64,000 nucleotides of DNA from an uncultured Lachnospiraceae bacterium (lineage in GTDB: Bacteria; Bacillota; Clostridia; Lachnospirales; Lachnospiraceae). The stretch is taken from the NCBI GenBank assembly GCA_902780405.1, contig CACZFI010000003.1:248001-312000 (forward strand). Direction: 5' to 3'. Positions 13,616 to 59,892 of the stretch are shown here, piece by piece (the stretch's first letter is position 1; each line of letters opens with the position of its first letter). The position numbers and the translations under genes were made by a program. The notes under the pieces are model-generated. The model had not been told where the DNA came from, searched no databases, and saw only the letters and a list, made by a program, of their open reading frames with translations.

Positions 13616-13776
13616 CGACAAAGAACAGGGGAATTCCCTTGCGTCTGCAATCTAACAAATCGTATTCCTTCTTCACACGAAACGGTCTGAAACACTCTGA
13701 AACGTACTTTTGTTCCGAAAACAAAAAGTGCCGCAAACCCTTATACAGAAAGGATTTCCGGCATCTTTTAATGTAG

Positions 13777-13847
13777 AGGCGCCAACCAGATTTGAACTGG
13801 TGATCAAGGTGTTGCAGACCCGTGCCTTACCACTTGGCTATGGCGCC
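13777..13847 (-). tRNA. tRNA-Cys (GCA)
   Basis: A 71-base cloverleaf on the minus strand. The acceptor stem GGCGCCA pairs with TGGCGCC, the anticodon loop is CTGCAAC and the T arm contains GTTCAAATC. CCA is not encoded. Confidence 0.95.
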
Positions 13848-13895
13848 ATATTACTTCGATCTACGATTCTTGCTATGCAAGAATCGTGATCTCAG

Positions 13896-13967
13896 CTCCC
13901 CGAGTAGGGCTCGAACCTACAACAACTCGGTTAACAGCCGAGTGCTCTACCATTGAGCTATCGAGGA
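13896..13967 (-). tRNA. tRNA-Asn (GTT)
   Basis: A 72-base cloverleaf on the minus strand. The acceptor stem TCCTCGA pairs with TCGGGGA, the anticodon loop is CTGTTAA and the T loop is GTTCGAGCC. Discriminator base G; CCA is not encoded. Confidence 0.95.
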
Positions 13968-14019
13968 CTGCTATGAGCACTTAGGTGGTGACGAGCCTCC
14001 GGCGAAGTCAGCACCTTAC

Positions 14020-14083
14020 GTGCGATGCGTGTCCGCGCCCTTAATGAGCACAAGCGAAGCGCTGTGCGAATTTAGTAGCGGAC
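14020..14083. repeat. Palindromic 64-bp repeat between tRNA genes, copy 1
   Basis: This copy is preceded by the short repeat CTGCTATGAGCAC (13969-13981). It folds into an imperfect hairpin: outer stem GTCCGC/GCGGAC, then CTTAAT/ATTTAG with one T-T mismatch, a tandem G-A/A-G step, and GCACA-(A)-GCG with loop AAG closing on CGC-TGTGC. It lies between tRNA-Asn and tRNA-Ser. Copy 2 lies 83 bases downstream. Confidence 0.9.
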
Positions 14084-14102
14084 CTGCTATGAGCACGCAT
14101 TC

Positions 14103-14166
14103 GTGCGATGCGTGTCCGCGCCCTTAGCGAACACAAGCGCAGCGCTGTGTGAGCTTAGTAGCGGAC
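14103..14166. repeat. Palindromic 64-bp repeat between tRNA genes, copy 2
   Basis: Identical to copy 1 at 57 of 64 positions and preceded by the same CTGCTATGAGCAC (14084-14096). Six of the seven differences form three compensatory base-pair exchanges in the hairpin (T-A to C-G, A-T to G-C, G-C to A-T). The seventh lies in the terminal loop. Confidence 0.9.
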
Positions 14167-14190
14167 CAGTGTGAGCACAACGTGCTCGAA

Positions 14191-14278
14191 CGGAGATGGA
14201 GGGATTTGAACCCTCGCGCCGCGTGAACGACCTACACCCTTAGCAGGGGCGCCTCTTCAGCCACTTGAGTACATCTCC
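14191..14278 (-). tRNA. tRNA-Ser (GCT)
   Basis: An 88-base class II tRNA with a long variable arm on the minus strand. The acceptor stem GGAGATG pairs with CATCTCC, the anticodon loop is CTGCTAA and the T loop is GTTCAAATC. CCA is not encoded. Confidence 0.95.
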
Positions 14279-14390
14279 AGTGCCATCGTTACGCTAAGTA
14301 TACCAATGGGCGTGCGTCAACACGCTTGACTATAATACCAAAGATATGCCGTCGTGTCAATGTTTTTCGACGCCATACAGCATTTTTTTC

Positions 14391-14984
14391 TTACTCCATA
14401 AATTCCTTGATCATCCGCAGTGCCTTTCCGCGGTGGCTGATCTCATTCTTCTGCTCGGGAGAAAGCTGTGCGGTGGTGCAATCGAACTCGGGTACGTAGA
14501 AAATCGGATCGTAACCGAAGCCGTTTTCGCCGACGGGATCGTAATTGATGCGGCCCTCGATGGTTCCGCGTACGCTCTTTACGTCACCGTTCGGGAAGGC
14601 TGCAGCGATGGCGCATACGAAACGCGCGGTACGCTTTTCGTCCGGAACACCTTCCAGTCTGTCGATCAGCTTACGGTTCTTGATCTCGTAGGGCGTATCC
14701 TCACCCTCATATCTTGCGCTGTAGATTCCGGGCTCTCCACCCAAAGCATCGATCTCAAGGCCACTGTCATCCGCGAGCACGACTGCGCCTGCTGCCTCAG
14801 GTGTGGCAGCGATAGCCTTCGCTTTGATCATCGCATTTTCCTCGAAGGTTTTTCCGTCCTCCACGATGTCGATATCGATCCCCGCTTCTTTCATGGAGAG
14901 GATCTCATATCCCGTTTCGGCCAGGATCATACGAACCTCACGCATCTTTCCTTCATTTCCCGTAGCAAATATAATCTTCTTCAT
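14391..14984 (-). CDS. rdgB: XTP/dITP pyrophosphatase (RdgB/HAM1 family)
   Basis: A 197-residue enzyme that removes non-canonical purine nucleotides (ITP, dITP, XTP) by hydrolysis to the monophosphate and pyrophosphate, protecting DNA and RNA. Family motifs present are the substrate loop IFATGNEGKMREV at the N-terminus, TFEENAMIKAKA near 65, the metal-binding ADDSGLEID near 90, GFGYDPIF near 155 and the C-terminal EISHRGKAL. It is the last gene of the rlmL-protease-rdgB unit, with only three bases between the protease stop and its start. Confidence 0.96.
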   Translation of the reverse strand: MKKIIFATGNEGKMREVRMILAETGYEILSMKEAGIDIDIVEDGKTFEENAMIKAKAIAATPEAAGAVVLADDSGLEIDALGGEPGIYSARYEGEDTPYEIKNRKLIDRLEGVPDEKRTARFVCAIAAAFPNGDVKSVRGTIEGRINYDPVGENGFGYDPIFYVPEFDCTTAQLSPEQKNEISHRGKALRMIKEFME

Positions 14985-20171: not shown

Positions 20172-20297
20172 AAAAGCGGAATCTGAGGACGGAACAGGCA
20201 GCCGTCACGCCCTTGCGGTCTTTAAAGAGATGTAGATTGTCACCTACCTATTCTGCTTTGCTTGATAACTATCCCGCCCAATACCGGGCGGGTTTTT
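20172..20297 (+). ncRNA. Candidate structured RNA with terminator, downstream of the PBECR-like gene
   Basis: An outer stem AAGCGGAAT (20174-20182) / ATTCTGCTT (20250-20258) encloses three small stems: GACGG/CCGTC, CGC-CCTT-GCG and GTAG/CTAC. About 15 bases later a strong terminator CCCGCCC-6-GGGCGGG with five T ends at 20297. It could be the 3' untranslated part of the preceding gene, an independent small RNA, or an RNA partner of the putative toxin. I do not recognise it as 6S, SRP, tmRNA or a known riboswitch. The downstream gene rsmA is on the other strand, so it is not a leader. Confidence 0.5.
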
Positions 20298-53597: not shown

Positions 53598-53728
53598 GTT
53601 TCCATACGGTCTGTGTTGCAGGACACGCTTGCGCTAACTTCCGCTCGCAACGGACGCTAAGCTCGTGAAAAACCTCGCTAAGCGCCGGCGGCTCCAGATT
53701 GTCCTTGCAACGCAGACCGTATGGAAAC
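53598..53728. repeat. Long hairpin element E1 (131 bp, about 28-bp terminal inverted repeats)
   Basis: The outer arms 53598-53625 and 53700-53728 pair over 28 bases with one G-T pair and one bulged base. The interior contains GGACACGCTTGCGCTAA and a core (53651-53715, GGACGCTAAGCTCG..., CTCGCTAAGCGCCGGCGG) also found at 59697-59760 on the other strand. No open frame. A fragment of the core (GCAGCGGACGCTA) recurs at about 53764-53776. Confidence 0.85.
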
Positions 53729-53797: not shown

Positions 53798-53879
53798 CGT
53801 GGGATGGGTGGTGGATGGGGTGATGTGTGATCGTCTCCTGGAGATTTCACGCGTCACCCCATCCACCATCCATCTCACG
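53798..53879. repeat. Long hairpin with 33-bp stem
   Basis: The arms 53798-53830 and 53847-53879 match over 33 bases with four differences. Each is a transition that still gives a G-T (G-U in RNA) pair. The 16-base loop contains CTCCTGGAG. There is no T run after it, so it is not an ordinary terminator. No coding frame. Confidence 0.85.
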
Positions 53880-59406: not shown

Positions 59407-59461
59407 TTGCATCCACCGTACGCAACCGGCGCAGGTTTGCCATCCATGGCATACTGAGAAA

Positions 59462-59529
59462 GAATCCTGACGGATTCCTTTGATGTCGCTCAAAGCCGCG
59501 ACGGGCTGTCTGCATCAAAGATGCAGACC
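59462..59529. repeat. Triple-hairpin module R2 (free copy)
   Basis: 68 bases with three short hairpins in a row: GAATCC-TGAC-GGATTC, GTCGC-N8-GCGAC and GTCTGCATC-AAA-GATGCAGAC. An inverted copy lies at 59776-59843. Confidence 0.85.
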
Positions 59530-59574
59530 AGATGCGCCTGCTTCGACATCCATGTCTCAGCTTGCTGAGTCTCA

Positions 59575-59684: not shown

Positions 59685-59892
59685 GGAAGGATGTGGCTGC
59701 GTTGCCAGGACAACGTGGAGCCGCCGGCGCTTAGCGAGGTTCTTTCGAGCTTAGCGTCCGCTGCGTGCGAAATCAGGTCTGCATCTGCGATGCAGACAGC
59801 CTGTCGCGGCTTTGAGCGACTTCATGGGAATCCGTCAGGATTCCTACCGACTTAGCGCAAGCGTGTCCAGGCAACACAGTCGGCATCCTTCC
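59685..59892. repeat. Long hairpin element E2 (208 bp) carrying a nested R2 module
   Basis: The terminal arms 59685-59712 and 59864-59892 pair imperfectly (GGAAGGATG, CTG, GTTGCC, GGACA paired blocks). In reverse complement it matches E1 in order: GGACACGCTTGCGCTAA, then TTTCGCACGCAGCGGACGC, then the core 59697-59760. An extra stretch of about 77 bases including R2' (59776-59843) is inserted between the first two blocks. No gene is supported between 59254 and 59934. Confidence 0.85.

Follow-up and report, generated by a model that had tools for sequence, protein, structure and literature searches.

The two hairpins that lie between the genes for tRNA-Asn and tRNA-Ser in the window (the whole stretch of 64,000 nucleotides of an uncultured Lachnospiraceae bacterium that we analyzed) represent the short form, seen in tRNA spacers, of a large dispersed palindromic Lachnospiraceae repeat family that has no Rfam entry. 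Common to the family is a module of the form CTTARYGA-(variable stem-loop)-GARYTTAG, whose stem keeps two kinds of mismatch, a T·T and tandem G·A. The tie that we draw between the tRNA-spacer form and the long forms described below is through the sequence of this 8+8-nt core, because the tRNA-spacer form is without the GNRA loop and the long arms. No Rfam 15 family reached its gathering score on the elements (only tRNA, rRNA, GA-cis and skipping-rope did so in the searched DNA), and no description of the repeat was recognized in the titles and abstracts that the literature searches returned, although an earlier description is possible. The skipping-rope RNA match (RF02924) lies at 20178 to 20254 of the window, on the plus strand; the GA-cis RNA match (RF02987), at 462 to 550 on the minus strand of locus L002, lies downstream of the tRNA cluster of contig C6 and is not a repeat copy.

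The two window copies occupy positions 14020 to 14083 (the unit of the preliminary description) and 14103 to 14166, on the plus strand, which carries the tandem G·A (sequence, self-comparison and fold); they are 89% identical over 66 nt, at a spacing of 83 bp. They had been presented as 64-bp palindromic repeats; both copies are real, but the pairing spans 53 nt of each, and the first 11 of the 64 nt are unpaired in single-copy folds. The folded hairpins extend from 14031 to 14083 (+; outer stem GTCCGC/GCGGAC, core CTTAAT(GA)..(GA)ATTTAG) and from 14114 to 14166 (+; core CTTAGC(GA)..(GA)GCTTAG), and they score 73.9 and 75.4 bits, respectively, with model R1, in which both copies are themselves included. 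In a pattern scan the core modules, each fitting CTTARYGA..GARYTTAG, lie at 14040 to 14075 and 14123 to 14158 (+), and the window holds four such matches versus none expected by chance. Alignment and predicted fold bear out what had been claimed of the differences between the copies: there are seven (14044, 14045, 14048, 14057, 14067, 14070 and 14071), six of which form three compensatory pair exchanges (A-T to G-C at 14044/14071, T-A to C-G at 14045/14070 and G-C to A-T at 14048/14067) and one of which (14057) is in the loop, while the tandem G·A step and the T·T mismatch are retained in both copies. The probability of at least three compensated pairs, given seven random substitutions on the hairpin, is 5e-6 if any base is allowed and 1e-4 if only transitions are. 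RNA folds of the single copies are moderately better than those of shuffled sequences (z of -1.9 to -2.5; -3.1 for the whole tRNA spacer), and it is therefore the comparative evidence, not the energy, that carries the case.

Both hairpins are flanked by tRNA-Asn (13895 to 13967) and tRNA-Ser (14190 to 14279), each on the minus strand. The 13-base word said to be the same for both copies, CTGCTATGAGCAC, was found at 13968 to 13980 (+), where it forms a boundary directly 5' of tRNA-Asn (GTGCTCATAGCAG in the tRNA sense), and again at 14084 to 14096 (+). A second hairpin of the tRNA-spacer unit (GCAC..GGTG..GCC/GGC..GTGC; 13977 to 14023, +), read from the sequence and partly present in the computed fold, recurs in tRNA leaders of relatives. 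A promoter scan placed a sigma-70-like site with 11 of 12 consensus bases upstream of tRNA-Ser (14332 to 14360, minus strand), which is probably the start of the tRNA transcript that contains both hairpins, and there were no terminator-like sites (a GC-rich hairpin followed by a T run) on either strand from 13700 to 14450; given this promoter-like site and the lack of terminator-like sites, both hairpins are probably transcribed with the tRNAs. The proposal that the hairpin is selected as RNA within the tRNA transcript is thus helped by the probable transcription of the spacer, but the G·A strand of the window copies is antisense to the tRNAs, as it is in all eight of the aligned tRNA-spacer sequences; because the transcript would carry C·U/U·C in place of the G·A, such an RNA is insufficient to explain why the tandem is kept. 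Three copies near tRNA-Asn elsewhere (L004, 271 to 306; L007, 90 to 125 and 191 to 226) carry the G·A on the sense strand of the tRNAs, unlike the window copies.

The family was searched for with a strict core pattern (CTTARYGAR-N4..34-YGARYTTAG) and the reversed pattern as control. The genome of the window (G000) has 41 strict matches versus none for the control, and about 50 copies in total; a looser pattern extracted 55 hairpins from it, mostly outside open reading frames (ORFs). Strict matches are present in all 37 genomes of the genus, and 47 other sampled Lachnospiraceae genomes gave about 185 matches versus about 15 for the control (a manual tally). When 295 genomes of the order were scanned, only Lachnospiraceae showed an excess, other families being near control, and the named loci likewise place the repeat in Lachnospiraceae. 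Copy number differs by genome, and the copies are mostly intergenic. Carriage by phages or plasmids was rejected: one core variant, searched for as an exact string in viral contigs, had no match there, the window spacer had no phage match, and the plasmid search returned a single plasmid-record match, from A. rectalis, inside a ribosomal-protein operon.

Three forms of the repeat can be told apart. The tRNA-spacer form occurs in the tRNA leaders of several species, with outer stems that are compensated among copies (GTCCGC/GCGGAC, GTCTGC/GCAGAC, GTCCGT/ACGGAC, GTCGGC/GCCGAC, GTCGTC/GACGAC and CAAGTC/GACTTG). In the tandem-pair form two copies lie about 55-60 bp apart after stop codons in operons, several of these loci starting 3-11 nt after the upstream ORF; pairs are found in the rpsH-rplF spacer of G000, G032 and a member of another genus, and after rpsL (the genes were named by inspecting the translated ends by eye rather than from annotation). 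A repeat copy also sits in the rpsN-rpsH spacer of Agathobacter rectalis. One tandem-pair unit between two genes (L016, approximately 1498 to 1640) has a 21-nt direct repeat, AAGTGAGACCTTAGCGAACAC, on either side. In the long forms, which measure about 130-200 bp, there are in addition paired outer arms that are peculiar to each copy, together with a GC-GNRA-GC hairpin. The window contains two long-form members, one at 53598 to 53728 on the minus strand (core 53657 to 53682; outer arms GTTTCCATACGGTCTG/CAGACCGTATGGAAAC) and one at 59685 to 59892 on the plus strand (core 59730 to 59754), which has an inserted three-hairpin module. A separate long inverted repeat with 33-nt arms that are 88% complementary (53798 to 53879) adjoins the 53.6-kb element. 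The three-hairpin module is present at 59452 to 59533 and, in opposite orientation, at 59773 to 59849; both sites are without the module in a 97% relative (G029), and relatives of the module sit inside other long-form elements.

Constraint on the hairpin fold, claimed from the window copies, extends to the relatives. Among tRNA-spacer copies of several species 93% of cells are paired and 23 cells show double changes, with a covariation of 0.481 versus at most 0.151 in slid controls. In 22 long forms of the complete genome G006 (47 pairs) 96% are paired and 33 of the 47 pairs have double changes, giving 163 double-change cells versus at most 25 in slid controls, with few one-sided changes. The preliminary description had set against a selected hairpin the prospect of many genomic copies whose differences fall at random with respect to pairing; many copies exist, and where they differ they do so in keeping with the pairing. 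The usual pattern itself demands CTTA, GA, GA and TTAG, and we therefore also retrieved copies by their flanking stems only, blind to the core: T·T is kept in 58 of 58 and both G·A in 50 of 58, and none of the eight departures from G·A is a Watson-Crick pair (all judged by eye; several copies are probably orthologs and so not independent). A symmetric double-stranded DNA site for a dimer was rejected, in that the half-sites differ at fixed positions and covary, whereas a dimer site would not be expected to require covariation. The ratio of G·T to A·C wobbles, at 6:4 in cores and 113:72 in outer arms, was not decisive and was dropped as a discriminator between RNA and DNA; the selected form may be RNA, single-stranded DNA or both.

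That the hairpins are copies of a palindromic dispersed repeat, as had been suggested, was confirmed, in that there are copies by the dozen and their presence differs between related genomes. Two elements of G006 (L257 and L258) are missing at the aligned sites of G035, where the flanks of the two genomes are 92-95% identical, and no consistent target-site duplication was found at these two empty sites. At another site L037 and G035:C1:400997 carry elements that are oppositely oriented and differ in their arms, and L253 and its ortholog have different arms, with 83% identity over the element. These sequence comparisons suggest movement, and the differences at L257 and L258 may be insertions or deletions. 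In five ortholog pairs the elements are 99.0% identical (823/831), versus 96% for the adjacent 100 bp (926/966) and 92-95% further out (L253 was set apart after its replaced arms were noticed; with it, the identity over six pairs is 96.5%, 957/992); this conservation above the flanks is more in keeping with a host function than with a parasite. Within a copy the two outer arms are in many cases fully complementary, yet they differ between copies. The idea that they are copied from the target site was rejected, for the arms of L258 are absent together with the element in G035, and those within G006 share a weak consensus.

Orientation relative to genes is also biased. Between codirectional genes the G·A strand of single copies is sense in 41 cases and antisense in 16 (p 0.001), tandem copies are sense 11:0, and inverted neighbors point apart in 14 of 15; these counts rely on a crude ORF caller (longest ORFs of at least 90-100 amino acids), and for both orientation and arm counts the loci were mostly fetched with the core pattern and the copies are not phylogenetically independent. 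In G006, where 18 copies are sense and 3 antisense, 23 of 27 lie along the leading strand by GC skew (read by eye from a table), and gene and replication direction are therefore largely confounded.

The explanation that we favor, with moderate confidence, is that the family is a non-autonomous mobile repeat whose fold is recognized by a protein, and whose copies in transcribed spacers are kept for their effect in cis on the transcript. The protein, encoded by the host or by the element itself, would recognize the folded single strand that carries the G·A, and this recognition is proposed as the reason that every form retains the fold and the mismatches. Copies in the spacers of ribosomal-protein, tRNA and other operons would be retained for the cis action of the hairpin, most likely on the processing or stability of the transcript and, in the window, between tRNA-Ser and tRNA-Asn within one transcript. 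A purely cis-acting RNA element, in which the transcribed hairpin is bound or cleaved by an RNase or RNA-binding protein, selection acts on RNA only and dispersal is incidental, is a possible but rather unlikely alternative: the sense bias in codirectional spacers (without exception for tandem copies), the short distance to the upstream ORF in several tandem-pair loci (rpsH-rplF, after rpsL), the A. rectalis spacer copy, the GNRA loop and the conservation of copies above their flanks all favor it, but it sits poorly with the antisense G·A of every aligned tRNA-spacer copy and with G·T wobbles that are rare and only mildly above A·C, and in G006 the sense bias is for the most part inseparable from replication direction. 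Compensation could also arise as a mutational artifact, without selection on the fold, if template switching copies one hairpin arm onto the other, a process that is described for RNA hairpins (PMC8794818) and would match the perfectly complementary, copy-specific outer arms and the scarcity of one-sided changes. Template switching should erase mismatches, however, whereas none has turned Watson-Crick, and the exchanged window pairs flank the G·A tandem, which is retained although a single copied tract would have removed it; the process could contribute in the long outer arms, but the kept mismatches argue against it as the only source of the compensated changes, and as an overall explanation we consider it highly improbable.

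Least probable of all, in our assessment, is a REP/RAYT system, in which the hairpins would be mobilized by a Y1 HUH transposase. The intergenic setting, the many copies and the imperfect stems speak for it, and a check for a RAYT-type transposase had been suggested, but PF01797 (Y1_Tnp, RAYT) has no match in G000 (100% complete, 41 copies) or G006 (27 copies) and was undetected in 29 of the 37 genus genomes; the other eight show no clear relation to repeat number (by eye), and 5 of 14 control genomes matched in the same search. No mobilizing enzyme for the repeat emerged from this PF01797 search. The boldest reading, which we put forward tentatively and think unlikely, is a new class of mobile element that is moved by an enzyme unrelated to RAYT and can be transmitted only by way of a folded single-stranded intermediate. 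A mismatch code (tandem G·A plus T·T) would serve for the recognition of this intermediate, and every round of copying would restore the outer arms as a duplex, by regeneration or correction.

The repeat resembles several known systems in part. Like REP/BIME elements with RAYT it consists of short imperfect palindromes that are intergenic, multi-copy and on both strands; it differs in that no PF01797 gene was detected in the genome of the window, in having no constant GTAG/GGAG at the 5' foot (the bases 5' of the core differ among copies: ..CGCC, ..CGGC, ..CGGT, ..TGGT), and in its conserved tandem G·A and T·T and the GNRA hairpin of its long forms. The nearest analogue in style, going by their description, are the pneumococcal BOX, RUP and SPRITE repeats, which are dispersed and modular, are predicted to form stem-loops if transcribed, and show a leading-strand bias (PMC3049150); they belong to another bacterial lineage, and here the arms are copy-specific rather than conserved terminal repeats. 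Miniature inverted-repeat elements (MITEs) are also non-coding, have inverted arms and can be present in one genome and absent from another, but the present arms pair within a copy with no shared terminal inverted repeat, and no consistent target-site duplication was seen at the two empty sites. Palindromic candidate structured RNAs of human microbiomes, as described in the main text of PMC8040213, are likewise structured elements of gut bacteria; the palindromic examples noted there are from Bacteroidetes, and the string 'Lachnospir' is absent from that main text. Hairpins maintained by template switching share the compensated changes and few intermediates (PMC8794818), but here mismatches are kept rather than corrected, and, unlike a kink-turn, the G·A tandem of the core is symmetric and without a three-nucleotide bulge.

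Lachnospiraceae are major gut bacteria, and in several of them, Agathobacter rectalis among these, the repeat is located within ribosomal-protein and tRNA operons. Because the family has no Rfam entry, annotation that relies on Rfam misses these elements. With dozens of diverged copies per genome and conserved mismatches, the family offers an unusually strong natural data set on the selected nucleic acid form of a dispersed palindrome.
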